Source: a virus. From it: a DNA stretch of 31,891 nt. Positions 4,111 through 31,891 of this stretch are shown piece after piece (position 1 is the first letter of the stretch; the number at the start of each line of letters is the position of its first letter). Made by a program: the position numbers and the translations under genes. The DNA lies in the IMG/VR virus record IMGVR_UViG_3300020469_000158, positions 1-31,891 of that record; one strand, given 5' to 3'. The notes under the pieces are model-generated. The model did not search any database and had not been told where the DNA came from. It was given only the letters and a program-made list of their open reading frames with translations.

Positions 4111-4647
4111 ATGAAATCACTAATTACAAAACTTGTGGCTATCCAGCAAAAGCTGAAAGCCCCAAAAAATCAACGCAATAAGTTCGGTAACTATAATTAC
4201 CGATCTTGTGAAGATATCTTAGAGTCTGTTAAGCCACTCTTAAACGCAGAAGGTTTAGTATTGACGCTTACAGACAAGATAAATAGCGATCCGTTGTATT
4301 GTGAAGCTACGGCTACAATTACAAATGGTGACGAATCGTTAACAGTAACTGCTCAAGCCGGTATCAATCCTGATAAAAAAGGAATGGATGTTGCACAGTC
4401 TTACGGTGCATCATCTAGCTATGCAAGAAAATATGCCTTAAATGGTTTGTTCTTGATAGACGACACCAAGGATGCAGATGCTACAAACGATCACGGGAAA
4501 AAACCTGTAAAAAAAGAAATGCTGACACCTAAACATCCGAACTTTAATAAAGTAAAACAATATTTAAGTTCAGGTGGTAGTGTAGATAATGTGTATGATA
4601 AATACACAGTATCAGACTCAGCTATGTCTCAATTAATTAATACATAA
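4111..4647 (+). CDS. erf: ERF-family single-strand annealing protein
   Basis: 178 residues matching the ERF superfamily of phage recombinases, which anneal complementary single strands during recombination and replication. Visible family features are an N-terminal helix (LVAIQQKLKAPKNQRNKFG), the YNYRSCEDILESVKPLL motif, a beta region (LTVTAQAGIN) and the SYGASSSYARKYALNGLF signature, followed by a polar tail. It is paired with an SSB-like protein four bases downstream and a RecE-like exonuclease at 8049-8783, the usual partner for processing ends. Start at 4111 is supported by the promoter immediately upstream and by family N-termini. Confidence 0.9.
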   Translation: MKSLITKLVAIQQKLKAPKNQRNKFGNYNYRSCEDILESVKPLLNAEGLVLTLTDKINSDPLYCEATATITNGDESLTVTAQAGINPDKKGMDVAQSYGASSSYARKYALNGLFLIDDTKDADATNDHGKKPVKKEMLTPKHPNFNKVKQYLSSGGSVDNVYDKYTVSDSAMSQLINT

Positions 4648-4914: not shown

Positions 4915-4932
4915 TTTTGTGTTTTGTTTTAG

Positions 4933-4963
4933 GGGTGGGCAGAGATGTCCACCCTTTTTTTTT
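4933..4963 (+). terminator. Rho-independent terminator inside the early block
   Basis: GGGTGGGC (4933-4940) pairs with GTCCACCC (4947-4954), one G-U wobble, loop AGAGAT, followed by nine T residues (4955-4963). It lies between the SSB-like gene and the ATPase gene, seven bases upstream of the latter's ATG, so it would end or attenuate early transcripts. Confidence 0.8.
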
Positions 4964-4969
4964 GCTTTT

Positions 4970-5794
4970 ATGAATCTTGAAGATAAATTTATTAGTTTAA
5001 CCAAAAAAGTATACATTGATCCTAATGAAAGAGTTGAGTATCCTCCAGTTGCTATATCTTATGGCTACTATAAAAGTGGTGAAAACCATTACCCTGTTCC
5101 TATTGGCACTTATGGTAATTTTTCTTTTATACAAGCGGCTCCAAAATCCAAGAAAACGTTTCTAGTATCTATGTTATGTTCCTGTTATTTAACAGGTCAA
5201 ACAAATTTTACAGGTGACTTAGTTGGTTACAGAGGAGATTTAAAGCTTGTACACTTTGACACAGAGCAAGGTAAGTTCCACGCACAAAAAGTATTCAGAA
5301 GAGTAATAGATATGGGTCAAACTGACAACTCTTTCTACGATACATACGGACTTAGAACTTTAGATATAGTTGATAGAAATTTATTTATTGAATTGTATCT
5401 TGAAAAGAATTACGACAAGGTTGGACTAATGGTTATTGATGGTGTGGCTGATTTAGTTTCTGATGTTAATGATATTAGAGAATCAAATGAACTTGTACAA
5501 AAAATAATGTACTGGACAGAAAAATATAATATACATATTGTATGTGTAATACACAGTAATTTCAACTCCGATAAACCTACAGGTCACTTAGGATCTGCAC
5601 TAGAGAAAAAAACGGAAACACAAATCAAACTACAAGTAAACGAACAAGACGATAACATAGTACAGGTTTCTTGCAAAAGAAGCAGAAGTATACCTTTTGA
5701 GGATTTCAGTTTTGAAGTCTGTAGAGATGGTTACCCAAGAATTATAGATAAAATTGATACACTACTAAATATAAAGTCAAATGGATCTAGATAA
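4970..5794 (+). CDS. RecA-fold ATPase, probable replicative helicase (RepA-like)
   Basis: I start at the ATG at 4970 (MNLEDKFISL); an upstream frame to 4919 runs through a terminator hairpin and encodes implausible residues. 274 residues with a RecA-type core: P-loop AAPKSKKT (56-63), HFDTEQ (95-100), Walker B LMVIDGVAD (153-161) and VCVIHSN (191-197) as a likely sensor segment. This matches AAA_25/RepA-like ATPases, which act as hexameric DNA helicases or as recombination mediators. Neighbouring ERF, SSB-like and RusA genes fit a replication/recombination role. No separate DnaB-type helicase or polymerase was recognised. Confidence 0.75.
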   Translation: MNLEDKFISLTKKVYIDPNERVEYPPVAISYGYYKSGENHYPVPIGTYGNFSFIQAAPKSKKTFLVSMLCSCYLTGQTNFTGDLVGYRGDLKLVHFDTEQGKFHAQKVFRRVIDMGQTDNSFYDTYGLRTLDIVDRNLFIELYLEKNYDKVGLMVIDGVADLVSDVNDIRESNELVQKIMYWTEKYNIHIVCVIHSNFNSDKPTGHLGSALEKKTETQIKLQVNEQDDNIVQVSCKRSRSIPFEDFSFEVCRDGYPRIIDKIDTLLNIKSNGSR

Positions 5795-5999: not shown

Positions 6000-6400
6000 C
6001 ACTTACATATCATATTAGACCAGTAGCCCATCAATCAGTTAGAATGTCCAAAAGGGGCTACACATATACACCAAAAAATATAATAAAATATAAAAAAGCT
6101 ATTGTTGAGCAAACTAAATCTCAATTACCTGAAGACTTTGAGATTGTTAAACACAGTACGCCAATAACAGTTGAGTATTTACACTATATCTACAAGTATC
6201 CTACTAAGTGGCGTAAGAAACAAAAACAAGAGTTTACTTACAGAATAGCAACTCCAGATTTACTTGACAACATCAACAAAGCGTTTATGGACGCTTTGGA
6301 AGGTGTAGTGTTTGAAAACGATTCAAGCGTGTGTTATGTTAAGGAATTAAAAAAATATTACGGAGAAGAATATAAAATTCAATTAAAATTATTATATTAA
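5990..6400 (+). CDS. rusA: RusA-family Holliday junction resolvase
   Basis: 136 residues matching RusA, a dimeric magnesium-dependent endonuclease that cuts four-way junctions. The signature TPDLLDNINKAFMDALEGVVF carries the expected acidic residues Asp90, Asp93 and Asp101, and END (109-111) aligns with the later acidic site. The N-terminal RPVAHQSVRMSKRG and KYKKAIVEQTK also fit. It would resolve branched DNA produced by ERF-driven recombination before packaging. Overlaps the upstream gene by 10 bases. Confidence 0.9.
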   Translation: MELTLTYHIRPVAHQSVRMSKRGYTYTPKNIIKYKKAIVEQTKSQLPEDFEIVKHSTPITVEYLHYIYKYPTKWRKKQKQEFTYRIATPDLLDNINKAFMDALEGVVFENDSSVCYVKELKKYYGEEYKIQLKLLY

Positions 6401-6405
6401 GGCAG

Positions 6406-6684
6406 ATGGATAGAAAAAAAATACCAGTTTATTCAGGTGTGCTTAATTATTTTCCAGATGCAATAAGAGAGGTTGCCAGGTGTAGTTACAAAGGTAACCA
6501 GCAACACAATCCACATAAAAGATTGCATTGGGACAGATCAAAGTCTGGTGATGAGCTTGATGCTCTTACTAGACATTTGTTGCAAGCGGGTACTTTTGAC
6601 ACTGACGGCATTAGACATTCTGCTAAAGTTGCCTGGAGAGCATTAGCCAATTTACAAAAAGAAATAGAAAATGATACTAAATGA
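6406..6684 (+). CDS. DUF5664-like (dATP/dGTP diphosphohydrolase-type) protein
   Basis: 92 residues resembling the DUF5664 family, which is annotated as dATP/dGTP diphosphohydrolase-like and related to MazG-type all-helical NTP hydrolases. Visible features: PDAIREVARCSYKG, then LHWDRSKSGDELDALTRHLLQAG, DTDGIRHSAKVAWRALANLQ. Order of Asp, Glu-Leu-Asp-Ala and His-x3-Ala matches the family. If active it would alter the dNTP pool; whether that supports modified-base synthesis cannot be read here. It is followed by a sigma-like gene overlapping by 14 bases. Confidence 0.62.
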   Translation: MDRKKIPVYSGVLNYFPDAIREVARCSYKGNQQHNPHKRLHWDRSKSGDELDALTRHLLQAGTFDTDGIRHSAKVAWRALANLQKEIENDTK

Positions 6685-7258
6685 ATTATCTAAACGAAAT
6701 AAAGAGTGGCATAGGATTGCTCTCTCTATTTGTAAAGATGAGCATTTAGCAAACGACCTGGTACAACTTATGTATTTTAGAATATTAAAGTACATAAAAG
6801 ACATTGACAAAATAAAAGTCAATGGTAAAATAAATTCCTTATACATATACGTCACAATTAAAAATCTGTATTATCAACACAAGAACGCTGAAAAGAAAAA
6901 TACAAGATTAGAGTATCAGGATTATGACAGTTTTGACGACAGCAACAACATAAACTATTACCCGTTAAACTTAACGACATCTATTGATGATGAAAAAAAT
7001 ATGATCTCATTTGAAAAGGCTCATCAAAAACTAATTGACAAAATAAACAATGAAATAAAAACTTGGCATTGGTACGATGAAAAGCTTTTTAGATTATATT
7101 ATTATACAGATAAAAGTTTGAGAAAGATTGCAAGTGAAACAGGTATATCGCTAACAAGTATTTATAATTCCTGTAAGAATTATAAAATAATTATAGAGCA
7201 AAAATTCGGAGAAGATTTTGCAGATTTCTTCAACAAGGATTACGATAAAATTAAATAA
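6671..7258 (+). CDS. Sigma factor-like protein (ECF/sigma-70 type)
   Basis: 195 residues with two parts that resemble sigma factors. Residues 8-70 look like region 2 (WHRIALSICKDEHLANDLVQ, then MYFRILKYIK and a helix NSLYIYVTIKNLYY). Residues about 137-175 look like a region 4 helix-turn-helix (EKLFRLYYYTDKSLRKIASE then TGISLTSIYNSC). A Lys/Asp-rich linker separates them. Similar proteins are known in Bacteroidota phages and may redirect host RNA polymerase to middle or late promoters, though a related terminase-like or DNA-binding role is possible. Located within the coupled early run. Confidence 0.62.
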   Translation: MILNELSKRNKEWHRIALSICKDEHLANDLVQLMYFRILKYIKDIDKIKVNGKINSLYIYVTIKNLYYQHKNAEKKNTRLEYQDYDSFDDSNNINYYPLNLTTSIDDEKNMISFEKAHQKLIDKINNEIKTWHWYDEKLFRLYYYTDKSLRKIASETGISLTSIYNSCKNYKIIIEQKFGEDFADFFNKDYDKIK

Positions 7259-7259
7259 T

Positions 7260-7667
7260 ATGAAAGAACCAAAAGATAAAAGAACAAAAGAATATAAAGA
7301 ATGGAAAAAGAATTTCGACAACAAGTCTAAAGGACTTGGTGACGATATAGAAAAAATAACTGAAGCTACAGGAATAAAGAAAGCTGTTAAGTGGGCGTTT
7401 GGAGAAGATTGTGGTTGCGATGAAAGGAAAGACAAACTCAATAGGTTGTTTGACTATAGAAAACCAAAGTGTTTAACAGAAGAAGAGTATAACTATTTAG
7501 ATGTACTATTCAACACAAAAGGTAGTGTGTTGTCGGCTGACAAGGTTACAAGGTGTATAAACATATATAATAGGGTTTTTAGTGCTTATCAAAGAGGAAC
7601 TGGTTGCAGCTCTTGCTTTGTATCAAACGTATACAACCCATTAAAAAAACTATATGAGAACTATTAG
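7260..7667 (+). CDS. Conserved Cys-containing phage protein of unknown function
   Basis: I start at the ATG at 7260 (MKEPKDKRTKEYKEW), one base after the sigma-like stop, rather than 42 bases upstream inside that gene. 135 residues with the widespread signature GLGDDIEKITEATGIKKAVK then FGEDCGCDERKDKL, and a C-terminal GCSSCF. Many Bacteroidota phages encode this family next to replication genes, but its function is unknown. The two CxC or CxxC pairs could bind metal. Confidence 0.72.
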   Translation: MKEPKDKRTKEYKEWKKNFDNKSKGLGDDIEKITEATGIKKAVKWAFGEDCGCDERKDKLNRLFDYRKPKCLTEEEYNYLDVLFNTKGSVLSADKVTRCINIYNRVFSAYQRGTGCSSCFVSNVYNPLKKLYENY

Positions 7668-8052: not shown

Positions 8053-8783
8053 AAACAATAAGACTACTTGATGGTTCCGAATGGGATAGAGATGAAATAA
8101 TAAAGAAGATGTATGATAATGAATTTTATTACGGCTATCTAGGTGTTAATTGTTTATCATCATCATCTTGTAAAAAACTATGTGAAAGCGTTGAGGACTA
8201 TTTATTTGAGGATGCTGCTCTTAACTCAAACCTAAAACCACTAAGAGACGGCAGACTTTTTCACGTCACTGTATTAGAAGCAGATAAACTGGATGAGTAT
8301 TATGATTTTGTAGACGTGGGTACAAGAAGAAATAAAGAGTTTAAGTCGCAGTTTGCCTTGTCTAAAAAGGAAGTTATGCTTTATAAAGAGAAGTTGTGGG
8401 CAGAAGATCTTAAAGATAATATTCTTAAACACAGTAGGTCAAAGTATTTAATTGAAAATGGCAAACCTGAAGTTCCAAACATAAACTATGTTTTTGGATT
8501 ACCTTTTAGAGGAAAGGCTGATTTATTGTGTAATGACAGGGTGGTTGACATAAAGACCACTGGCGATATTGATAACTGGGATTACAATAAATATTTTTAT
8601 GGCTACGATATGCAAGCATATCTGTATATGAAATTGTTTGATAAAGAAACCTTTGAATTTGTTATAATAGATAAGCGTACAAAAAAGGTAAAGACGGATG
8701 AGGTTACAGAGGATTTTATTAGATCAGGAGAACGAAAAGTTAAAAAGGCAGTTGCAAATTATGTCAAATACTTTGCAATTTAA
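8049..8783 (+). CDS. RecE-like PD-(D/E)XK exonuclease
   Basis: 244 residues similar to phage exonucleases of the PDDEXK (DUF3799, exonuclease VIII-like) family, which resect double-stranded DNA to give 3' single strands. Visible: LSSSSCKKL near the N-terminus, GRLFHVTVLE (68-77), the core RGKADLLCNDRVVDIKTT with Asp158, Asp167 and Lys169, and YDMQAYLYM with Gln189. Paired with the ERF annealing protein (4111-4647) it forms a standard two-component phage recombination system. A copy of the genome's repeat (8425-8438) lies inside the coding sequence. Confidence 0.82.
   Translation: MKTIRLLDGSEWDRDEIIKKMYDNEFYYGYLGVNCLSSSSCKKLCESVEDYLFEDAALNSNLKPLRDGRLFHVTVLEADKLDEYYDFVDVGTRRNKEFKSQFALSKKEVMLYKEKLWAEDLKDNILKHSRSKYLIENGKPEVPNINYVFGLPFRGKADLLCNDRVVDIKTTGDIDNWDYNKYFYGYDMQAYLYMKLFDKETFEFVIIDKRTKKVKTDEVTEDFIRSGERKVKKAVANYVKYFAI
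8425..8438 (+). repeat. Scattered copy of the TTAAACGCAGTAGG repeat
   Basis: TTAAACACAGTAGG, one mismatch to the array A unit and extended by GTCAAA like the third array A copy. It lies inside the RecE-like exonuclease gene, where it encodes LKHSR. Confidence 0.7.
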
Positions 8784-8971: not shown

Positions 8972-9376
8972 ATGAAATTATCACAAATAAAATCGTTCGT
9001 AGAAAATTACACAGAATTAGATTTAGATTATAAAACAAGACAAAGATGTTTTGTTTACGCAAGAGCTGTGTATTTTTACCTAGCAAAAAAACACACAAGA
9101 AATAGTTTGAAAACACTAGCTGACTCCCTACAGGTTCATCACACATCTGTAATTCATTCTTTAAATAATGTAATGCCAGTTGTTTTTAAGTACGACAAAC
9201 ACTTAACAACTTTATGCAAAAACTTTAGCCAGGAATATAAACACTTTGTGAACAATACAAAAAAAGGCAAACAGCATTTGCTTGATGAAAACATTAACTT
9301 AAAGTTAGAGATCGTAAAATATAAAACAATGATCAAAGATATGAATGAGAAACAAAGCGTACAACAAGGATGTTGA
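8972..9376 (+). CDS. DnaA-domain-IV-like DNA-binding protein
   Basis: 134 residues. Residues 22-65 resemble the C-terminal DNA-binding domain of DnaA: RQRCFVYARAVYFYLAKKHT, then SLKTLADSLQVHHTSVIHSL, comparable to the R-D-H-S-T-V-x-H motif that reads DnaA boxes (here HHTSVIHS, 56-63). The AAA+ domain is absent, and the C-terminus is coiled coil (LLDENINLKLEIVKYKTMI). Such stand-alone domains in phages may bind origins or regulate. Located just before the terminase genes. Confidence 0.65.
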   Translation: MKLSQIKSFVENYTELDLDYKTRQRCFVYARAVYFYLAKKHTRNSLKTLADSLQVHHTSVIHSLNNVMPVVFKYDKHLTTLCKNFSQEYKHFVNNTKKGKQHLLDENINLKLEIVKYKTMIKDMNEKQSVQQGC

Positions 9377-9605
9377 TAAAAGTAAGTTTAACATAGGGTA
9401 CAACCTTGAAGCTGTATCTTGGTGTTTTAAAAACGGATACAAGTTATATCCAAAGCCACTTGGGAAACTTTACTTAATTATACTAGAGTATAAAGGAACT
9501 AAAGCAGAAAGCGAAAAACTATATACAAAGACTAATTGGAGTGACAAGATTTGGAAAACATATCAGCATATATATAAAACAAAATGCCTAGAAAGAAAAC
9601 AGTAA
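9345..9605 (+). CDS. Hypothetical basic protein, 86 aa
   Basis: Overlaps the DnaA-like gene by 32 bases and the next gene by 22. Contains FNIGYNLEAVSWCFKNGY and YPKPLGKLYLIILEYKG, then WSDKIWKTYQHIYKTKC. The motif recurs in small proteins upstream of terminases in Bacteroidota phages. Function unknown; possibly linked to DNA packaging. Confidence 0.65.
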   Translation: MRNKAYNKDVDKSKFNIGYNLEAVSWCFKNGYKLYPKPLGKLYLIILEYKGTKAESEKLYTKTNWSDKIWKTYQHIYKTKCLERKQ

Positions 9606-9973
9606 GAAAGTATATGAAATCTACTGACGGTAGAAAGAATAACGGTCAGAAGCCAGGAGACGCTGTTTTAAGGCGTTCTCTGGCTAGTTCTAGTAAAATG
9701 AATGTCGCTAAACGCAATAGGTCAAAAGTGTTGGCTACAGACGCTATAAGACAGATATACGGATCTGAACAAGAGTTCTGGAAACTTATAGCTGAGAATG
9801 CAAGAGACTCACAGTTTGACCGTAAGATGATCGTTGAGTATGTTTATGGTAAGCCAAAAGATTATGTTGACTTAGGTGGTAATGCAGAAAAGGTAGATAT
9901 ATCCATAATGAATTTCTTTGAGGGAAGTCAAGAGAAAACAATAGATATAGATGAAGGCACCGAGGCTGAATAG
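9584..9973 (+). CDS. terS: Putative terminase small subunit
   Basis: 129 residues directly upstream of, and overlapping by 23 bases, the large terminase gene. A basic N-terminus (MPRKKTVRKYMKSTDGR) precedes a helical core (KVLATDAIRQIYGSEQEFW, then DRKMIVEYVYGKPKD) and an acidic tail ending DIDEGTEAE. The core and position match small terminase subunits or their DNA-binding domains, which recognise the packaging start. A near-copy of the genome's repeat (9708-9721) lies inside it. No classic helix-turn-helix motif stands out, so the call rests largely on context. Confidence 0.65.
   Translation: MPRKKTVRKYMKSTDGRKNNGQKPGDAVLRRSLASSSKMNVAKRNRSKVLATDAIRQIYGSEQEFWKLIAENARDSQFDRKMIVEYVYGKPKDYVDLGGNAEKVDISIMNFFEGSQEKTIDIDEGTEAE
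9708..9721 (+). repeat. Scattered copy of the repeat inside the small terminase gene
   Basis: CTAAACGCAATAGG, two mismatches, again extended by GTCAAA. It encodes AKRNR in the putative small terminase subunit. Confidence 0.65.
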
Positions 9974-11162
9974 CAAGTACCAAGCTTTTGGTAATCAATC
10001 AAGATATTTTATAGTTACAGGCGGTAGGGGCAGTGGTAAATCATTTGCAGTAAATGTATTCTTATTGTTGCTTACTTACGAAAGAGGTCACAAGATATTG
10101 TTTACAAGATATACAATGGTCTCAGCAGCATCATCTATCATCCCAGAGTTTATTGAGAAGCTAGAGCTTATGGGTGTGGTCGAGGACTTTAGAATAACTA
10201 AAGATGAGATAACAAACATAAAAACACAATCAAGTATATTATTTAAAGGAATTAGAACAGCGTCAGGAAACCAAACTGCTGCACTCAAATCATTAAACGC
10301 AATAACTGCTTTTGTACTTGATGAAGCCGAAGAGCTGACAAACGAAGACGACTTTGATAAGATAGATCAGTCTGTTAGGGTAAAGAATAAACTCAATAGG
10401 GTTATATTAATACTCAACCCAACAACAAAAGAGCACTGGATATTTGGAAGGTTTTTTCAGAACAGAGACATTCCTGACGGATATAATGGTATGAAACAAA
10501 GCATCACCTACATACACACAACCTACTTAGACAACAAAGATAATTTATCGTTATCGTTCCTTAATCAGATACAAGAGATAAGAAGAAGAAGACCAGAGAA
10601 ATATGTTCATCAGATAATGGGAGCTTGGTTAGAAAAGCAAGAAGGTGTTATATTCAAGAACTGGAGGATAGGAGACTTCAATGAGAACTATGAAATATAC
10701 TATGGTCAAGATTTTGGATTTAGTATTGATCCGACTGTGCTAACTAAACTTAGCATAGATAAAAAAGGTAGGCGTATATTTTGTAAAGTAATGTATTGTA
10801 AAGCTGGACTTTCTACATCACAGATTGCAGACTTCAATATCAGATATGCAGGACCACATTTAATAATATCTGATAACTCTGAGCCGAGACTTATAAAAGA
10901 AGTCAAGGCGAAGGGAGTGAACATTACCCCGACCATTAAACGCAGTGGGTCTATACTTACAGGTATTGCATTACTGCAAGACTTTGATTTAATAATAGAT
11001 CCTGACTCTACGGATCTTGTCAAAGAATTAAATAATTATGTTTGGGCAACTAAAGGTCAAACAAAACCTGTTGATAAATTCAATCACTGCATCGACTCAA
11101 TCCGCTACGCAGCTCAATACGCTTTAGAAGGATTTAATAAAGGCACTTACTCTATTCGTTAA
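9951..11162 (+). CDS. terL: Terminase large subunit
   Basis: 403 residues with an ATPase and a nuclease half. Walker A GGRGSGKS is at 24-31 and Walker B FVLDEAEE at 121-128. The RNase H-like nuclease has Asp254 (YGQDFGF), Asp308 (LIISDNSEP) and Asp382 (HCIDSIRYAAQY). This is the Terminase_3/XtmB type, the motor that pumps DNA into the prohead and cuts it. The ATG at 9951 overlaps the small-subunit gene. The stop codon lies inside the first unit of repeat array A, and repeat-like sequences also occur in the gene (10293-10306, 10935-10950). Confidence 0.95.
   Translation: MKAPRLNSKYQAFGNQSRYFIVTGGRGSGKSFAVNVFLLLLTYERGHKILFTRYTMVSAASSIIPEFIEKLELMGVVEDFRITKDEITNIKTQSSILFKGIRTASGNQTAALKSLNAITAFVLDEAEELTNEDDFDKIDQSVRVKNKLNRVILILNPTTKEHWIFGRFFQNRDIPDGYNGMKQSITYIHTTYLDNKDNLSLSFLNQIQEIRRRRPEKYVHQIMGAWLEKQEGVIFKNWRIGDFNENYEIYYGQDFGFSIDPTVLTKLSIDKKGRRIFCKVMYCKAGLSTSQIADFNIRYAGPHLIISDNSEPRLIKEVKAKGVNITPTIKRSGSILTGIALLQDFDLIIDPDSTDLVKELNNYVWATKGQTKPVDKFNHCIDSIRYAAQYALEGFNKGTYSIR
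10935..10950 (+). repeat. Scattered copy of the repeat inside the large terminase gene
   Basis: ATTAAACGCAGTGGGT, one mismatch to the 14-bp core. It encodes IKRSG, between the second and third nuclease acidic residues. Confidence 0.7.
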
Positions 11163-11214
11163 ACGCAGTAGGGTAATCATTAAACGCAGTAGGTTTATCG
11201 TTAAACGCAGTAGG
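11159..11214 (+). repeat. Repeat array A: three 14-bp units at exact 21-bp spacing
   Basis: TTAAACGCAGTAGG occurs at 11159-11172, 11180-11193 and 11201-11214, all in the same orientation and exactly 21 bp apart, about two helical turns. The terminase stop codon TAA is inside the first unit. Regular spacing on one DNA face points to cooperative protein binding. Confidence 0.9.
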
Positions 11215-11302
11215 TCAAATACTTACACAAAAAATAATTAACATTTTATACACAATTATTAAAAAAAGTTTTATATATTGCATCCAACAAAACATTTTAA
11301 TT

Positions 11303-11494
11303 ATGAAAGAAAAACAATTTAAAAGCAAATTAGTTGAGTGGTATAATGATTATAAAATATCCGTAAGGGTTGAATATTGGTTAGACCCTGAGACTAATGA
11401 TGTAGTTCTTGATAAACAAGAAATGAGACAGTCGCTAAGATCTGAGATACAAAGACTTAGTAGACTTTTAAGATTTGGTGAAATACCAGAATAA
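11303..11494 (+). CDS. Hypothetical protein, 63 aa
   Basis: First gene after repeat array A, preceded by an A/T-rich region. Helical with alternating charge (FKSKLVEWYNDYKISVRVEY, then EMRQSLRSEIQRLSRLLRFG). Followed by a 13-bp perfect hairpin (11500-11530). No recognised domain. Confidence 0.65.
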   Translation: MKEKQFKSKLVEWYNDYKISVRVEYWLDPETNDVVLDKQEMRQSLRSEIQRLSRLLRFGEIPE

Positions 11495-11499
11495 ATTCT

Positions 11500-11530
11500 T
11501 TCATTGGGTTTGCATGACAAACCCAATGAA
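11500..11530. repeat. 13-bp perfect inverted repeat
   Basis: TTCATTGGGTTTG (11500-11512) and CAAACCCAATGAA (11518-11530) are exact reverse complements around CATGA. No T run follows on either strand, so it may be a partial terminator, an RNA-processing or stability hairpin, or a protein-binding site. Confidence 0.7.
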
Positions 11531-11550
11531 TAACTATTAAATTAAATAAT

Positions 11551-11814
11551 ATGAATAATAAACTAAAACAATTTATAAAAGAGTCCGAGAATGGTAAAAT
11601 ATTCTCGGCTACCTTCATTAAGAAGGACGGAACCGAAAGGAGAATGAGCGCTAGGCGTGGAGTCTCTAAAGGTGTAACAGGACAGGGAATGTCTTTTGAC
11701 CCTATGTCAAAGGGATTGCTTGTTGTGTTTGATATGCAAAAGCTTGCATATAGAATGATTAACCTACTTACTTTAAAACAGGTTAATATAAATGGTAAAC
11801 AAATAAAATTATGA
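11551..11814 (+). CDS. SH3-type beta-barrel-like protein
   Basis: 87 residues resembling a phage family described as SH3 beta-barrel fold proteins: KIFSATFIKKDGTERRMSAR, GVSKGVTGQG, then KGLLVVFDMQKLAYRMINLL and VNINGKQIKL. The order of strands and the basic surface suggest nucleic-acid or protein binding, but no specific partner can be named. It lies in the small-gene module between the repeat arrays. Confidence 0.65.
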   Translation: MNNKLKQFIKESENGKIFSATFIKKDGTERRMSARRGVSKGVTGQGMSFDPMSKGLLVVFDMQKLAYRMINLLTLKQVNINGKQIKL

Positions 11815-11972
11815 AAAATAAAAAACCAATATGGAAAAAAAATAAATACGGAAAATGGTATAAGTTAAAGCCTGTAACTGATAAGATTGCATTCATCCCT
11901 TGTGATGAGTTTGATCAAACTTACAAATGGCAAAAAACAAATAAAGGTTACCCAGCAAAAAGATTAAAATAA
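11811..11972 (+). CDS. Small basic protein, 53 aa
   Basis: ATGA overlap with the preceding gene. A very basic peptide with three Trp residues (PIWKKNKYGKWYKLKPVTDK, IPCDEFDQTYKW). Too short for a confident domain call; the tight overlap and codon use support a real gene. Confidence 0.55.
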   Translation: MKNKKPIWKKNKYGKWYKLKPVTDKIAFIPCDEFDQTYKWQKTNKGYPAKRLK

Positions 11973-11993
11973 ATAATATAAAAACAAAACATT

Positions 11994-12224
11994 ATGAAAA
12001 TACAAGAATTTAAAAAAGCAATGAAAGAAGTTTTCGGAGATAGATATATTGACGGAGACTCAGAAGGTTCTTTGAACCTTAGATCAAAGAAAGACGACTC
12101 GATTGATTTAAGAGAGTCCGCACACAAATTACTATTTCAGGGAAATTCTAAACAAAGATTAGAAGGAGCTGGAATGTTAAAGGTGTTAGATAAGTTAAAT
12201 TTAGATAATGGTAAAACAAAATAA
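11994..12224 (+). CDS. Hypothetical protein, 76 aa
   Basis: Starts MKIQEFKKAMKEVFGDRYI and continues with acidic and helical residues (SIDLRESAHKLLFQGNSKQR, then LEGAGMLKVLDKLN). Two bases separate it from the next gene. No recognised domain. Confidence 0.62.
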   Translation: MKIQEFKKAMKEVFGDRYIDGDSEGSLNLRSKKDDSIDLRESAHKLLFQGNSKQRLEGAGMLKVLDKLNLDNGKTK

Positions 12225-12226
12225 TT

Positions 12227-12637
12227 ATGGCTACAAGATGTACAATTAAAATAGATGGCGTAAAGTACGCTAAGATATATAAGCATTGGGACGGATATCC
12301 TGAAGCGAATTACTTATGGTTAACTAAGTTTAACGATAGATTTAATAAGGAACGAGGAGATGATCCGAGTTATAAGTTTGCTCAATTACTTAGGTTCTCT
12401 AGTAAATATTCAGGCACTTATAATCTAGACAAGTCTGAGTTTACAGGCTGGGGAGTAACTAAATATGATGCTGAGTGTTGGGAAGAGTACGAGTACCATC
12501 TAACTAACAAAGAAGTTGAGGTTTATAGAGTAAGCTTTGATGATAAAGATAATCAGTATCTTGAGAGAATCCCTGAGAGTGAGGTTAAGGTTATGATTAA
12601 AGGTTTAAATGAATCATTAGCAAAAGGTATATTATGA
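12227..12637 (+). CDS. Conserved phage protein, HWDGYP family
   Basis: 136 residues with TRCTIKIDGVKYAKIYKHWD then GYPEANYLWLTKF. The motif (A/T)R(C/A)xIKI...IYxHWDGYPE recurs in small phage proteins across several host phyla. The central part is aromatic and acidic (TGWGVTKYDAECWEEYEYHL). The function of the family is not known to me. It overlaps the next gene by 4 bases. Confidence 0.7.
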   Translation: MATRCTIKIDGVKYAKIYKHWDGYPEANYLWLTKFNDRFNKERGDDPSYKFAQLLRFSSKYSGTYNLDKSEFTGWGVTKYDAECWEEYEYHLTNKEVEVYRVSFDDKDNQYLERIPESEVKVMIKGLNESLAKGIL

Positions 12638-12903
12638 AAATGAAAGATAAAATAGCTGATCTTGAAAAGCAACTTGAGTCAGCAAAAAGACATACCTACA
12701 TTCACGACAGCCATACGATACAAGTATCGGACGGTGAGCTTTATGTTGGTTATGGAGATTTTGATAATAATAAAACTTTGGTTTGGAATGTTGATGATTT
12801 ATTTAATGATTTAGATTTTATAATAACAAAGGTTACAGAAGAGAAAGCTAAGTTATATAAATGGAGACTTAATAGAATTAAAAATTCAATAAAAGAGTTA
12901 TGA
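12634..12903 (+). CDS. Hypothetical protein, 89 aa
   Basis: ATGA overlap at its start. Begins with a short coiled coil (MKDKIADLEKQLESAKRH), followed by a beta-like segment (HTIQVSDGELYVGYGDFD) and a basic helical tail. No recognised domain. The sequence ends one base after the ATG of the next gene. Confidence 0.62.
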   Translation: MKMKDKIADLEKQLESAKRHTYIHDSHTIQVSDGELYVGYGDFDNNKTLVWNVDDLFNDLDFIITKVTEEKAKLYKWRLNRIKNSIKEL

Positions 12904-13058
12904 GAACATTCGGCAGAATATTAAAGAGGTTTTTCTGTTCAAAGGGAACACAGATTTGGCTCTGTGTTCCTTCTGTTATGGAGAATAAAGAATATAAAGA
13001 AAAGTTTATAATGGATACAATAAACTTTTTACAGGAAACAATAAAAGTAAAGTTATGA
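12900..13058 (+). CDS. Small basic protein with internal hairpin-coding stretch
   Basis: 52 residues in an ATGA overlap with the preceding gene and an ATGA overlap with the next. N-terminal basic segment MRTFGRILKRFFCSKGTQIW. A 10-bp perfect hairpin (GGAACACAGA at 12945-12954 with TCTGTGTTCC at 12961-12970) lies within it, so the coding call could be doubted and the region might instead hold a regulatory hairpin with a shorter gene from 12979. Confidence 0.45.
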   Translation: MRTFGRILKRFFCSKGTQIWLCVPSVMENKEYKEKFIMDTINFLQETIKVKL

Positions 13059-13234
13059 CAAATAGAGAAGACTTAGCAAGGGTGCTAAAAGATTATCAGC
13101 ATTTGGTTAATCAATACCAAAAGAAAGAAACTGAAGTATTAGATAAAGATTATATGATACAAGAGTTACAGGATAAGATAGACTTACTATCGGCAAACAT
13201 AGAAGTATTACAAAACAAAATATATGAGCAGTAA
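13055..13234 (+). CDS. Small coiled-coil protein, 59 aa
   Basis: Overlaps neighbours on both sides. Predicted almost fully helical (MTNREDLARVLKDYQHLVNQ, then MIQELQDKIDLLSANIEVLQ). No recognised domain. Confidence 0.58.
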   Translation: MTNREDLARVLKDYQHLVNQYQKKETEVLDKDYMIQELQDKIDLLSANIEVLQNKIYEQ

Positions 13235-13448
13235 AAAAGGAGTTTATAGTATTAACGATAAGCATTATGATCTTAATATTTATTATGAATACAGTTATGA
13301 TGTTGGCGATTGGATGCAACCGCCAACAAATGATGTAGATGTTTATAAGGTTGAGCTGAATGATGAAGACATAACTGAATTTTATTTTGATTATATGTCA
13401 GGTTTGTTTGAAGATCAAGTTTATCAATTCGCTTTACAAGATCATTAA
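13224..13448 (+). CDS. Acidic protein, 74 aa
   Basis: Overlaps the previous gene by 11 bases. Rich in Asp, Tyr and Phe (NIYYEYSYDVGDWMQPPTND, then ELNDEDITEFYFDYM), suggestive of a DNA-mimic-like surface charge, although that is only a composition argument. Its TAA stop lies inside the first unit of repeat array B, as the terminase stop does in array A. Confidence 0.6.
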   Translation: MSSKKGVYSINDKHYDLNIYYEYSYDVGDWMQPPTNDVDVYKVELNDEDITEFYFDYMSGLFEDQVYQFALQDH

Positions 13449-13548
13449 ACATAGTGGGTTCTTAAACATAGTGGGTCATTAAACATAGTAGGTTTTTGGG
13501 GTGTAAAAAAAAAATATACTAATCATTAAACGCAGTAGGTTTTTGGGG
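13445..13548 (+). repeat. Repeat array B: three 17-bp-spaced units plus one exact array-A unit
   Basis: TTAAACATAGTGGG at 13445-13458 and 13462-13475, TTAAACATAGTAGG at 13479-13492 (17 bp apart), then TTAAACGCAGTAGG at 13526-13539. The last two are each followed by TTTTTGGGG. A 23-bp exact match joins 13520-13542 to 11174-11196 in array A. Confidence 0.88.
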
Positions 13549-13655
13549 TTTTTCGGCTAAATTTTTTTATAGCTATAAAATTATTTTTTATTTATTGTGC
13601 ATAAAGTGTTAATTATTTTTATTATATTTACATAGTAATATTAAAACAAAACAAT

Positions 13656-21081: not shown

Positions 21082-23102
21082 ACGAAGAAGAATTTATACT
21101 CAAGATAATTGTAGATGATGGTCAGTTTCTGGTAAAATTACCTAATGCAGAAAAAAAGGTAAAAAGCCTAGGGCAAGCTATGAAGTTTGCTGAAAAAAAA
21201 TCACAAGAATTTAGTGAAAGCATAAAAGATAATTCACAAAAAAATGCTGATCTTATAAACTCATCTGGTTTAGCTGGAGCTACATTAACTGAGTTTGGAA
21301 GAACTATATCTGATTTACCATTCGGTATAACTGCGATTACAAACAACTTGTCACAGCTCGGTACTCTATTTACAACTTTAGTTGCTAAAACCGGAGGAAC
21401 TACTAATGCGCTTTTTTTATTAGGTAAACAATTAGCACAAGGTCCGCTTGCTATAATTCTTGTTTTTCAAGTTTTGATATCCTTGTTACAATCTTTCCAA
21501 AAAGAGATTAAAAACTTTGTTCTTGGTGTTGAAGAAGCAAATGAAGCAACTAAAAAACTTCGTTCAAACTTTTTTGGTTTATCTGAAGAGATAAAAGAAA
21601 ACAACAAAGAATTAAAAAAACAAGATAAAGCAATAGCAAAAAACATTAAAAAGCTTCTAAACAAAACAGAAATATTAATCAAAAACAAAAACGCACAACA
21701 CAATTTAAATAGAACAGAAGAATCTTTTAATAATCGTAACAAATTTAACATAGATCAAATGAATAAAAGAGTTGCTGCGTTAAAAGATCTCGGAGTTCAA
21801 ATAGACGAGACCAGGTTGTTAGAAGAAGGTTATGTTGAATCACTAAAAAACGGTGAAGGCACTATAAGTAATGTTGCTGAAAAATTAAATCAAAGGAGGA
21901 TAGATTTAGAAAAAGAAAGACTGTCTGGAAGAAAAACAGATGTTGAGCTTTTACAAGCAGAAATAGCTTTGTTTATAGATACACAAGAATCTCTAAATAT
22001 CAAAGCAGAACAATACCTCAAGTCAGAAGAATATCAAATGCTACAAGCAAAACTTGCCAAAGCACAAAATGAAGCATTTTTAAAAGCAAGAAATGCAAGG
22101 TTTGCTGAAGAAGTTGAAGCAGAGGTCAAATATAGAAAAGATTTAGCAGAAGCAACTGCAGCTCTTTTTGAAAAAGATGCTGAATCAATGAAAGAACCAC
22201 TGACGGTTGTTGAAGACTTTTATGACGATGGTATTGACTCTCTACTTGAGTTTAACAGGTTTAGAGAACAGTTTATTGAGAAAAGTGAACTCGAAATACT
22301 AAACATTATGGAGCAGGCTGCTTTACAAAAAGCAAAAAAGCTAGCTGAAGAAAGTAATGGTTTAATAGATTTTGAAACAGAAAAAACTAGAATAGTAGAG
22401 TTTTTCTCAAACAAAAGAAGAATGTTGTTGAATGAAGAATTAAATCAAACTTTATTGCAAGTTCAAGATATGATTGGTCAAATATCAAGTGCCTTGAATG
22501 CTCTTACAGACGCTGAACTCAGTAGGGAGGAAAGAAAAACTACAATAGTCAATAACCAACTTACGGAAAGATTAAGAAATGAAAAACTATCAGCAGATCA
22601 AAAAAAAGCTATCAATAAACAAATAGAAAATAACGAGATAGCTCTGCAGAAAAAAAGAGATAAAATAGCTGAAAAGAACTTTAAACTACAAAAGGCAGCT
22701 ATGATAGCTAACGCCCTTGTTGAAACTTTTAGAACTGGCATTTTAGCATACGGTTCACAATTAATTATTGGCGATCCAACCTCTCCAATTAGAGCTCAAA
22801 TAGCTCAAGGTATTGCGTTGGCTACGGGCTTGGCTCAAGTCGCAGCAATAGCAAGGACTAAATTTGTTCCATCTGCTATTTCAGCACCCTCTTCAGGCTC
22901 GGGTTTTAGTGGTTCGAGTAGAGGGCAATCTTCTGCGGTAGACCCTGCATTCAACATAGTAGGTACTGGTCAGCAGTTTCAGTTAGCACAAGTTATTGCA
23001 CAAAGAACAGGAGAACCTATTAGGGCTTTTGTTGTAAGTGGAGATGTAAGGACAGGTTTAGCACTTGATAGAAATATAATTAATAGTTCAAAACTAGATT
23101 AA
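21078..23102 (+). CDS. Tape-measure protein
   Basis: 674 residues, mostly helical with long charged coiled coils (about 160-370 and 440-560), a hydrophobic glycine-containing region (residues ~65-140, including LGKQLAQGPLAIILVFQVLI), and an Ala/Gly/Ser-rich C-terminus (QGIALATGLAQVAAIART, then SSGSGFSGSSRGQSS). This is typical of siphovirus tape measures, which set tail length and help DNA cross the membrane. At roughly 0.15 nm per residue the tail would be near 100 nm. The tail chaperone with frameshift is upstream, as expected for its partner. Confidence 0.78.
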   Translation: MNEEEFILKIIVDDGQFLVKLPNAEKKVKSLGQAMKFAEKKSQEFSESIKDNSQKNADLINSSGLAGATLTEFGRTISDLPFGITAITNNLSQLGTLFTTLVAKTGGTTNALFLLGKQLAQGPLAIILVFQVLISLLQSFQKEIKNFVLGVEEANEATKKLRSNFFGLSEEIKENNKELKKQDKAIAKNIKKLLNKTEILIKNKNAQHNLNRTEESFNNRNKFNIDQMNKRVAALKDLGVQIDETRLLEEGYVESLKNGEGTISNVAEKLNQRRIDLEKERLSGRKTDVELLQAEIALFIDTQESLNIKAEQYLKSEEYQMLQAKLAKAQNEAFLKARNARFAEEVEAEVKYRKDLAEATAALFEKDAESMKEPLTVVEDFYDDGIDSLLEFNRFREQFIEKSELEILNIMEQAALQKAKKLAEESNGLIDFETEKTRIVEFFSNKRRMLLNEELNQTLLQVQDMIGQISSALNALTDAELSREERKTTIVNNQLTERLRNEKLSADQKKAINKQIENNEIALQKKRDKIAEKNFKLQKAAMIANALVETFRTGILAYGSQLIIGDPTSPIRAQIAQGIALATGLAQVAAIARTKFVPSAISAPSSGSGFSGSSRGQSSAVDPAFNIVGTGQQFQLAQVIAQRTGEPIRAFVVSGDVRTGLALDRNIINSSKLD

Positions 23103-26727: not shown

Positions 26728-27351
26728 ATGAGTTGTGATTTAACAAAAGGAAGACAAAGACCTTGTAAAGACTCTGTAGGTGGACTGAAGGCAGTATACT
26801 TTATTGATTATGGTATGAGTGGTTTAGTGATGAACACTACTTCAGGTACTGAAGACAATATTGCTGCAATTGCAGGCAGTAATACTGCTTACAGATATGA
26901 TCTTAAAGGCAACTCCAATTTAGAGCAAACCGTTACTTCTTCGACAGACACAGGAGGTACGTTCTTTGAACAAACTCTAACTTTGGTTTTACCAAAACTA
27001 ACACCAAAAGATCACAAAGAATTAAAATTAATCTCTTTTGCTAGACCTCACATAATTATCAAGGACAACAACGATAATTACTTTATGGCAGGTTTAGAAC
27101 ACGGAATGGATGTAACTGGAGGAACTATTTCTTCAGGTGCAGGTATGGGAGATTTAAGTGGGTACTCATTGACTTTTACAGGTCAAGAAAGAGCTCCTGC
27201 TAATTTTTGTGATATTTCGGCAGAAACAGATACGCAACTATCCTTTAGTAATAATGGTGGTGCTGCGTCAAACGTATCTGTTGTACCAGGTACAGTAGCT
27301 GATGTAGATGTAGATGATGACCAATCTGGTATACCAGGCGGAGGTAATTAG
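26728..27351 (+). CDS. Putative major tail (tube) protein
   Basis: 207 residues starting MSCDLTKGRQRPCKDSVGGL. A beta-rich body with TFFEQTLTLVLPKLTPKDHK, HIIIKDNNDNYFMAGLEHGM and TGGTISSGAGMGDLSGYSLT resembles tail-tube-like structural proteins of Bacteroidota siphophages. The C-terminus ends in acidic DVDVDDDQSGIPGGG. It follows the capsid gene after a hairpin, so it may be expressed at high level too. Tail-tube assignment is from layout; it is unusual to lie between capsid and portal genes. Confidence 0.5.
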   Translation: MSCDLTKGRQRPCKDSVGGLKAVYFIDYGMSGLVMNTTSGTEDNIAAIAGSNTAYRYDLKGNSNLEQTVTSSTDTGGTFFEQTLTLVLPKLTPKDHKELKLISFARPHIIIKDNNDNYFMAGLEHGMDVTGGTISSGAGMGDLSGYSLTFTGQERAPANFCDISAETDTQLSFSNNGGAASNVSVVPGTVADVDVDDDQSGIPGGGN

Positions 27352-27374
27352 TGATTTTTCATAAGTTTTGTAAG

Positions 27375-27401
27375 AAAGCCCTGTTATGCAGGGCTTTTTT
27401 T
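27375..27401 (+). terminator. Rho-independent terminator
   Basis: AAAGCCCTG (27375-27383) pairs with CAGGGCTTT (27389-27397), loop TTATG, with T residues from 27395 to 27401. It lies between the putative tail-tube gene and the small beta protein before the portal. Confidence 0.85.
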
Positions 27402-27435
27402 ATAAACACATTTGTCTTAATTTGATTATCTTATT

Positions 27436-27792
27436 ATGATAGTATTACAACCTGTAACAAGTTCACAAACAATTAGAATTGTACCAAGATCTTATAAGGC
27501 TGACAGCACTGTTAGCTTAACAATTACAGAAGACGGAACAAGAAAAACACAAACATTAAATAATCTTACTTCAACATATAACGGTAATTTTATAGATATA
27601 CCTTGTTCATTTACTATACTATCAGAAGGTAAAATGTATTTACTTGAACTTACAAGATCAAGTAATTTATTATTTAGAACTAAAGCTTATTGCACAGCAC
27701 AAACAAACAGAACTATACCGCACACATTAAATACTGGCGAGTACACTGAGCATAGTGCAGAAGCTGCTGGTCAAAAATATATAACAATATAA
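27436..27792 (+). CDS. Small beta-rich structural protein
   Basis: 118 residues with many strand-forming Thr/Ser/Ile/Val stretches (TSSQTIRIVPRSYKADSTVS, then FIDIPCSFTILSEGKMYLLE) and no clear helices. Two bases separate its stop from the portal ATG. Beta-sandwich proteins next to a portal or tail tube may be virion decorations; no specific family recognised. Confidence 0.55.
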   Translation: MIVLQPVTSSQTIRIVPRSYKADSTVSLTITEDGTRKTQTLNNLTSTYNGNFIDIPCSFTILSEGKMYLLELTRSSNLLFRTKAYCTAQTNRTIPHTLNTGEYTEHSAEAAGQKYITI

Positions 27793-29610: not shown

Positions 29611-31891
29611 ATGGGTACTACTCTAACGGGAACTTTTATAAGTCAAACATTTGATGCCTTACTAAAAGTAACAGACAACGATAATTTAACAGCAACACCA
29701 AAAAGAATTACAGATGGTCTTGGTAACGACACGCCTTTATTTATTTCTACTGCTAGGATTGGTATTGGTGTTTCACCCACTACTGATTTTCAGGTTTCTG
29801 GTAATTCACAATTAGGCGGTAATTTAACTGTTACAGGTAACTTAGTTGTACAGGGTACTACAACTACAGTTGACACAGATACCTTGTCTGTAAAAGATCC
29901 GTTAATTATTGTAGGATCAGATAACACTTCTAGTGACGCAGTAGATTTAGGTTTTTATGGAGTGTATGATACTTGCGGAACCTTAGACTTGTATGCTGGT
30001 TTGTTTAGGGATGCAAGTGATGCAAAATTTCATTTATTTAGAGATTTACAAGTTGAACCTACAACTACAGTAAACAAAAGTGCAACTGGTTATACAGTTG
30101 CCACTTTGGTAAGTAATCTTGAAGGTAATGTAATTGGTAATGTAACAGGTAATGTTTCAGGTTCAGCAGCAACGGTAACAGGTGCAGCTCAAACTGCTAT
30201 TACATCAGTTGGAACATTAACAGCTTTACAAGTTGATAATATAAATATAAATGGAAATACTATTTCTAGTACCGCAGGTACAGACTTAAACATTACTCCT
30301 TTAACAGGTCAGCAAATTGTGTTGGACGGAACTATTGTCGTTGATGCGGGTGTGGTTACTGGTGCAACCTCTATAACATCTACAGCTTTTGTAGGTGCTT
30401 TGTCAGGTAATGTAACGGGTAATGTAAGCGGAAGTTCTGGTTCAACAACAGGTAATGCTGCTACAGCTACTGCTTTACAAAATGCAAGAACAATAGGAGG
30501 CGTATCTTTTGATGGTACTAGTAATATAGATTTACCAGGTGTAAATACAGCAGGAGATCAAAATACAAGCGGGAATGCAGCAACGGCTACAAAAATAGCA
30601 AGTATTACTAATAGTAATATTGTTCAACTCACATCGTCTCAAACACTAACAAATAAAACAATAGATTTAGATAACAATACAGTTTCTAATATAGAAGTTG
30701 ACAATTTAAAAAGTGGTGTTTTAGATACAGACTTAAGTTCAGTATCTGGTTCTGACGATACATTAGCCTCTGCAAAAGCAATTAAAACTTATGTAGATAC
30801 ACAGATAACATCAGAAGATTTAGATATTGCTGGTGATAGTGGAACAGGATCAATTGATTTAGATTCACAAACATTTACAATTGCTGGTGGAACAAACGTA
30901 ACAACTTCTGTAAGCGGACAAACAGTTACAATAAACGCAACTGGTTCTATTGATGGTAGCGGTACTGCTAATGATGTAGTAATGTGGCAAGATAGTAACA
31001 CACTAACCGATGCACCTATTGCTATTTCTGGAAACAACACAACTTTTGCTGGTGGAATGAATTTAGTAGGTAATTTTATAAATGTAGGCAACGGACAAAG
31101 TAATGCTGAAAATTATTTACAATTAGGTCATTCAAGAACAGGAAACGGATTTGCTTATATAGATTTTGTTGGAGATACGACATATTCAGATTTTGGTTTA
31201 AGAATTATTAGAAATGATTCAGGTGCAAATACTACTTCAGATATTATTCATAGAGGTACTGGTAATTTTAATATTACAACTAATGATGCTGCAAGTTTAA
31301 GATTTCAAACAAGTAACACAAATGCTCTTACTATTGATAGTTCACAAAATGCAACTTTTGCAGGAAACATCGGTCTTGGCGGCGCAACTAGCCCTAGTAG
31401 ACTCTTACACGTAGATAATACATCTAACGCAACTAAAGCTAGTGCATATTTCTACACAAACGCGCAACACACTGGAACAACAACTCAATCTCACGTTGCA
31501 ATATATTCTGATAACGCAAGTTCTACTGGTACATTAATATACGGTAGAGGCGATGGCACTGGTGATTTACTTATACTAAATAAAGGTGGTACAAATAAAC
31601 TTGTTGTTGATGATGATGGTAATGCAACTTTTGCAGGAACTGTTTTAATTGATGGAGTTAGTAATTACACAGGATTAGAAGTAAAAGGAACAGGTGCATC
31701 AAGACCATCAGTTAATCTTTCAAATGTAACCACAGGTATTTTAGGTCAAATGTACGCAACAGAAAGTAGTGCTTTAGTGTTTGCAACAACGACAAGTGGA
31801 ACAACTGCTTTGACTCTAGATTCATCACAAAACGCAACTTTTGCAGGAACAATAGATTCAGGTACTATAACTTCTACTGGTGTTGTTAAAG
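29611..31891 (+). CDS. Tail fibre protein N-terminal part (3' partial)
   Basis: Open from the ATG at 29611 to the right edge (760 codons plus one base, no stop). The start (MGTTLTGTFISQTFDALLKV) matches the N-terminal part of many marine-phage fibres. Next come LTVTGNLVVQGTTTTVDTDT, GNVIGNVTGNVSGSAATVTG and shaft motifs of the TNKTIDLDNNTVSNI type. Repeated modules in the right half each end in SSQNATFAG, NNTTFAG or GNATFAG, typical of repeated fibre shaft. The C-terminus with the S74 chaperone is probably the piece at the left edge. The repeats may have broken assembly here. Confidence 0.82.
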   Translation, partial: MGTTLTGTFISQTFDALLKVTDNDNLTATPKRITDGLGNDTPLFISTARIGIGVSPTTDFQVSGNSQLGGNLTVTGNLVVQGTTTTVDTDTLSVKDPLIIVGSDNTSSDAVDLGFYGVYDTCGTLDLYAGLFRDASDAKFHLFRDLQVEPTTTVNKSATGYTVATLVSNLEGNVIGNVTGNVSGSAATVTGAAQTAITSVGTLTALQVDNININGNTISSTAGTDLNITPLTGQQIVLDGTIVVDAGVVTGATSITSTAFVGALSGNVTGNVSGSSGSTTGNAATATALQNARTIGGVSFDGTSNIDLPGVNTAGDQNTSGNAATATKIASITNSNIVQLTSSQTLTNKTIDLDNNTVSNIEVDNLKSGVLDTDLSSVSGSDDTLASAKAIKTYVDTQITSEDLDIAGDSGTGSIDLDSQTFTIAGGTNVTTSVSGQTVTINATGSIDGSGTANDVVMWQDSNTLTDAPIAISGNNTTFAGGMNLVGNFINVGNGQSNAENYLQLGHSRTGNGFAYIDFVGDTTYSDFGLRIIRNDSGANTTSDIIHRGTGNFNITTNDAASLRFQTSNTNALTIDSSQNATFAGNIGLGGATSPSRLLHVDNTSNATKASAYFYTNAQHTGTTTQSHVAIYSDNASSTGTLIYGRGDGTGDLLILNKGGTNKLVVDDDGNATFAGTVLIDGVSNYTGLEVKGTGASRPSVNLSNVTTGILGQMYATESSALVFATTTSGTTALTLDSSQNATFAGTIDSGTITSTGVVK
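31341..31850 (+). repeat. TFAG-type module-boundary repeats in the tail fibre
   Basis: Near-identical bases (core GCAACTTTTGCAGGAA) occur at 31351-31366, 31624-31639 and 31834-31849, each encoding NATFAG; a diverged copy encoding NTTFAG is near 31036. They mark boundaries of fibre modules. Confidence 0.78.

Follow-up and report, generated by a model that had tools for sequence, protein, structure and literature searches.

A one-orientation 14-bp repeat at gene borders of uncultured marine Bacteroidetes phages and a candidate sigma-like reader

Two repeat arrays in the window

The window analysed here is a 31,891-base IMG/VR virus record (IMGVR_UViG_3300020469_000158) with phage genes for an ERF recombinase, RusA, a RecE-like exonuclease, the terminase large subunit and a portal protein, and it carries a 14-bp repeat unit in two tandem arrays. 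Array A (11159–11214, plus strand) consists of three exact matches to TTAAACGCAGTAGG at 11159, 11180 and 11201, separated by 21 and 21 bp. Array B (13445–13492, plus strand) consists of exact matches to TTAAACATAGTGGG at 13445 and 13462 and to TTAAACATAGTAGG at 13479, separated by 17 and 17 bp; an extra GC-type unit, again TTAAACGCAGTAGG, follows 47 bp past the third (13526–13539, plus strand). The TAA stop codon of the terminase large subunit gene (9951–11162, plus strand), at which array A begins, lies inside the first unit of that array, and the TAA of the open reading frame (ORF) at 13224–13448 lies inside the first unit of array B. An initial annotation of the window had described this layout, and a recheck of all positions confirmed the placement of the units, their common plus-strand orientation and the stop codons within the first units. 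At up to three mismatches, the window holds 21 unit matches compared with 3.2 expected, a number reached in 0 of 100 dinucleotide shuffles.

That annotation overlooked near-consensus single copies on the same strand inside genes, as well as the occurrence of the same arrays across the whole phage lineage. In the window, intragenic copies lie on the plus strand of the genes for the ERF recombinase (TTAAACGCAGAAGG, 4240–4253, one mismatch), the RusA-like protein (TTAAACACAGTACG, 6147–6160, two mismatches), the RecE-like exonuclease (TTAAACACAGTAGG, 8425–8438, one mismatch), the presumed terminase small subunit (CTAAACGCAATAGG, 9708–9721, two mismatches), the terminase large subunit (TTAAACGCAGTGGG, 10936–10949, one mismatch to the main consensus) and a presumed tape-measure protein (TTCAACATAGTAGG, 22950–22963, one mismatch to the AT-type unit).

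Both arrays are followed by A/T-rich leaders on the plus strand. The leader after array A (11215–11302) is likely to contain the promoter of a small-gene block, and a promoter is also presumed in the leader after array B (13540–13655). The two leaders share a 37-nt inverted repeat (11230–11266 and 13584–13620; 89% complementary), each copy of which contains one DnaA-box-like sequence: TTATACACA at 11246–11254 and TTATGCACA at 13596–13604 on the minus strand. The small-gene block between the arrays (11303–13448) is strongly variable in content among related phages, in which such a block often ends in a further array.

The repeat across the phage lineage

Judged from sequence comparison, the repeat unit is a lineage-wide element of an uncultured marine Bacteroidetes phage family. 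A scan of viral contigs yielded at least 119 stretches with tandem unit pairs, whereas 84,980 bacterial and archaeal species, searched with one genome each and a slightly looser pattern, yielded only 4. Of the contigs that encode a close terminase relative, 74 extend far enough downstream, and 73 of these have at least two units directly past the terminase stop codon; the initial annotation had named absence of the arrays from close relatives as its own refutation, and the opposite was found. The unit is also present in all of 39 further records, many of them near genome length, with terminases 59–97% identical where present. Together with the window these records form a 40-record set of 1.18 Mb in which nearly all genes share a strand. 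When up to one mismatch is allowed, 314 sites fall on the coding strand of this set and 0 on the opposite strand.

The arrays are absent from P12024L, an isolated relative with many structural genes in common, and none were found in phages 11b and Harreka. A blastn search of array A against isolated phages gave only weak partial matches, mostly to enterobacterial phages, and a literature search on the 14-mer returned no paper. We rejected a Chi-like host motif, as the unit is not enriched in hosts: 7 of 60 host-order genomes contain any exact match, with 10 matches in total.

Within the genes of the 40 records, copies with no more than one mismatch number 54 and fall at about 12 distinct positions, compared with 0–1 copies after codon shuffling. 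The terminase large subunit gene holds such a copy in 18 of the 40 records, and the tape-measure copy at 22950 is kept in 8. Some orthologous intragenic copies show a switch between GC and AT despite the resulting amino acid change, and selection therefore seems to act on the nucleotide motif.

Units of group 1 follow the consensus Y(TC/CR)-TTAAAC-(GC/AT)-AGT-R-GG, followed by T-rich sequence, with positions 6 and 7 switching jointly between GC and AT. Covariation within the unit is confined to neighbouring dinucleotides, namely positions 6–7 (GC/AT), positions 12–13 (GG/CC) and the two bases preceding the unit; in group 2 units, positions 11 and 12 covary. In more distant terminase relatives, whether at the same gene borders or at others, the arrays are built from units that differ from this one but are related to it, including GTTTAAYATRATGGGG/ACCCC, TTTAAYATRATGGGG or ATACCCC, TTTAACATTATGGGG or CCCC, CTCTTTAACATAGTAGGGG or CCC, and TTTTNCATAGGGG, with others besides. 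Thus, the motif changes from sublineage to sublineage. Units are similar inside one genome and different among sublineages, a pattern that co-evolution of a reader protein with its site would produce.

Arrays contain 2–6 units in tandem and occupy a few junctions per genome, up to about four: after the terminase gene, which is the commonest site; after small variable gene blocks; between the genes at 26728 and 27436; and beside or before the lysin gene. Most first units overlap a stop codon or come after one; this codon starts at unit position +1 in 53 arrays and at −6 in another 29. Intrinsic terminators follow 7 of 75 arrays, compared with 89 of 429 other intergenic gene ends. The Bacteroidetes-type promoter element TAnnTTTG occurs within 250 nt downstream of 39 of the 75 arrays, compared with 17% of random windows.

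Unit spacing is variable in length and nearly constant in parity. The initial annotation had read the 21- and 17-bp distances as fixed phasing, implying cooperative binding. Neither helical phasing nor cooperative binding is supported, as spacings across relatives range from 17 to 33 bp with only parity conserved, and distances of 17, 19, 21, 23, 25, 27 and 29 bp place units on every face of the helix. The fixed phasing seen in the window is thus an accident of two arrays. With near-identical spacers collapsed and spacers with a hidden degenerate unit removed, odd distances make up 91 of 105 in group 1, 24 of 27 in group 2 and 11 of 12 in group 3. Tested against equal odds, these counts give p = 5e-15, 5e-5 and 0.006, respectively, with spacers treated as independent though the phages are related. 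RNA hairpins were rejected as the cause, since no consistent structure emerged when 192 arrays were folded, nor from base-pair accumulation or spacer swaps. On inspection, spacer ends showed no pairing and spacers no hidden inverted half-sites.

Three further observations concern the records themselves. In a Flavobacteriaceae genome, a 1.13-Mb contig carries a two-unit array with a 17-bp distance and a TTC spacer (L194:3543–3573). A tyrosine-recombinase-like gene lies about 1.1 kb away, and close by is a hairpin sequence that also occurs beside phage arrays; the array is perhaps a phage remnant. One 35.3-kb record, G016 (L014, L016), contains the terminase gene with its array twice, one at each end, so that it must exceed one genome (permuted or redundant ends). 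In the window, tail-fibre-like ORFs run off both ends (1–441 and 29611–31890) in frames that do not join directly, and the window may stem from a circularly permuted genome that has a small gap.

Candidate readers and functions

The initial annotation proposed a specific protein as the reader of the repeat; at the level of sequence, this is well supported by lineage conservation, the strand lock and intragenic copies far above chance. Of the three roles it offered, a regulator of the small-gene runs stands, whereas packaging recognition and origin iterons are unlikely. Iterons fit poorly because several arrays are dispersed through the genome and single copies lie inside genes; packaging is weighed below.

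The leading candidate for the reader is an extracytoplasmic function (ECF)-sigma-like protein of 195 amino acids (6671–7258, plus strand), predicted to have a region 2-like part and a region 4-like helix-turn-helix (residues ~149–172). TIGR02937 matches 25 of 26 members of this sigma-like family, with the window protein scoring 34.3 bits, under the curated cut-off of 42.9 bits; PHROG 1740 matches 19 of the 26. Its AlphaFold model has two helical domains (mean predicted local distance difference test (pLDDT) score 82, predicted template modelling (pTM) score 0.44), and the top matches in a Foldseek comparison with the PDB are ECF sigma factors. We scored conserved protein families for short stretches that are invariant in genomes with motif 1 and altered elsewhere. 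The top score, 3.23, fell on the C-terminal helix-turn-helix of the sigma-like protein, followed by 3.00 for a small family and then 2.25. The group 1 segment I-S-(L/V)-T-S-(I/L)-(Y/F)-N-S-x-K-N-Y is constant in the aligned records, while whole-protein identity falls to 37%. P12024L has a different C-terminal region in its sigma-like protein, and no such protein was found in 11b and Harreka.

A second candidate is the presumed terminase small subunit (9584–9973, plus strand), which has no Pfam or PHROG match and is named from its position before the large subunit gene; it qualifies because no member of its family was found outside the array-bearing phages. A small protein encoded at 8972–9376 has a DnaA domain IV (Pfam Bac_DnaA_C, E 3e-11) and no AAA domain. 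We rejected it as the reader, as the same domain occurs in P12024L and Harreka, two phages in which arrays were not found.

Our preferred, still tentative reading is that the 14-bp unit is an asymmetric, direction-locked site at the borders of transcription units, recognised by a lineage-specific transcription regulator for which the ECF-sigma-like protein is the most likely candidate. Tandem arrays would mark these borders, with weaker single copies inside genes. The region 4-like helix-turn-helix would bind the unit, and the arrays would serve downstream gene blocks as clusters of phage promoters or activation sites, the effect probably being initiation rather than blocking. ECF −35 elements typically contain AAC, which the AAC in the TTAAAC of the unit resembles.

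Several observations weigh against this regulator reading. Genomes with group 2a arrays share one motif, yet their helix-turn-helix sequences are quite different, and G045 pairs a group-1-like helix with a group 2 motif; for these reasons the lead of the sigma-like protein is modest, and its helix-turn-helix signal could reflect phylogeny alone. Neither a −10-like element nor a conserved motif was found at a fixed distance after last units, and TAnnTTTG also occurs in the upstream 250 nt of 27 of the 75 arrays. At the lysin gene the start codon comes directly after the last unit, so that transcription from an ordinary promoter there would begin within the gene. Moreover, recognition by a sigma factor does not predict odd spacing. 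A variant in which an activator sits at a fixed distance from a promoter was rejected, given that the distances spread over about 70–240 bp.

A stoperator-type roadblock matches the layout about as well as a site read by a sigma factor. Excerpts of one report describe stoperators as asymmetric repressor sites that stop elongation (PMC9283540). Here, a protein bound in one orientation would block RNA polymerase where transcription units end and, to a weaker degree, within genes. The asymmetry of the unit and its constant orientation with respect to transcription, its many copies per genome, divergence of the motif between sublineages, the overlap with stop and in places start codons, and the scarcity of intrinsic terminators at arrays relative to other intergenic gene ends all speak for such sites. 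We nevertheless consider them unlikely: no repressor or integrase was recognised among the profiled window genes, arrays adjoin an intrinsic terminator at the 26728–27436 junction, and odd-spaced clustering is not predicted. A little less probable is an element that acts in the nascent transcript or 3′ untranslated region, through nut/boxA-like antitermination, processing or protein binding. The unit is restricted to the sense strand and begins at stop codons, where untranslated RNA starts; at one junction the array lies between stop codon and terminator; and the group 3 unit contains CTCTTTAACA, the E. coli rrn boxA core. However, arrays fold no better than shuffled sequence (mean z = +0.58), host rRNA leaders carry a different boxA-like sequence (about GTTCTTTGAAAATATTG), the other motif groups are far from boxA, and some arrays come after a terminator hairpin.

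None of the transcription, RNA, packaging or origin mechanisms that we considered predicts the odd spacing, which recurs in three motif groups, is not anticipated from ordinary binding of a protein to a DNA duplex and points towards some form of parity sensing. For a motor that advances in steps of two nucleotides, odd spacing would ensure that each register contains one unit. This brings in a Chi-like DNA signal that a helicase, nuclease or packaging motor would read in one direction as it translocates, with clustering between genes reflecting freedom from coding constraint. The strand lock, intragenic copies and odd spacing would all fit, and a RecA-fold ATPase (4919–5794, Pfam AAA_25) is encoded in array-bearing records except apparent fragments. 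Even so, we regard such a signal as improbable: the ATPase is also present in the apparently array-free phages 11b and Harreka and did not rank among the families that co-vary with the motif, sequence-specific reading by such motors is not established, and not all of the coupled columns stay in a single two-base register. A strict two-base register within the unit was dropped because of the covariation of group 2 positions 11 and 12. It is more doubtful still that the spacing rule itself is functional, with neighbouring units in opposite two-nucleotide registers and a reader that steps two nucleotides along one strand and recognises the unit only in register. If true, the unit would be a stop or load signal that a translocase reads from the sequence, a type of signal for which we know of no phage example. 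A packaging (pac) recognition array of the terminase would account for the commonest array, directly past the terminase gene, and for a presumed small terminase family found only with arrays; several arrays per genome at unrelated junctions and single copies in many genes make it very unlikely. The least probable explanation is that the arrays are boundary repeats for exchange of variable small-gene cassettes by ERF/RecE recombination, their similarity kept only by recombination within the genome. Gene content between arrays differs strongly among relatives while the arrays persist, and motifs are uniform within and different between sublineages, but selected intragenic copies and odd spacing would go unexplained.

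Two other genes in the window are recorded here. The ORF at 6406–6684 matches the dATP/dGTP diphosphohydrolase N-terminal family (PF18909, E 2.5e-10), which is tied to 2-aminoadenine phages; no purZ-like gene was noted. A conserved cysteine-rich protein (DCGC...C..C; 7218–7667) has relatives in many lineage records and in P12024L.

Comparison with known systems

The repeat appears to be an unnamed control element, with a candidate reader, common to a widespread and mostly uncultured marine phage lineage, for which it could serve as a practical genomic marker. Replication iterons resemble it in being tandem direct repeats with 17–21-bp spacing beside A/T-rich DNA, but the phage arrays are several and dispersed, extend into one-strand intragenic copies and have spacings of 17–33 bp that are not helically phased. 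A pac site occupies one locus per genome, unlike the up to about four array junctions here. As with nut/boxA, the unit is a sense-strand element near terminators, with the boxA core in group 3; it differs in the divergent host boxA, the non-matching motif groups and the lack of a structure signal. The likeness to ECF sigma promoters lies in the ECF-sigma-like protein that the genome encodes and in the AAC of the unit, whereas the tandem copies and the lack of a −10 element at a fixed distance set it apart.

In excerpts of a report on halovirus HF2, intergenic repeats carry promoters, as tested with a reporter gene (PMC8707807). Those repeats and the arrays described here both recur virus-wide between genes at gene borders. 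As far as the excerpts describe them, the HF2 repeats differ in length (29–58 bp), in their AT-rich motifs and in belonging to an archaeal virus, and the promoter role of the phage arrays is putative.

The stoperators of cluster A mycobacteriophages are short, occur in many copies in one orientation within small intergenic gaps, overlap stop and start codons and have a subgroup-specific motif; PMC9283540 and PMC6550527 belong to the literature on these sites. Our unit differs in its tandem arrays of 2–6 copies with odd spacing, in the absence of a recognised repressor or integrase from the profiled genes, and in phage lineage and host. It is like them in being short, asymmetric and many-copy, in its single orientation (314:0), in overlapping stop and start codons and in a motif that depends on the subgroup.

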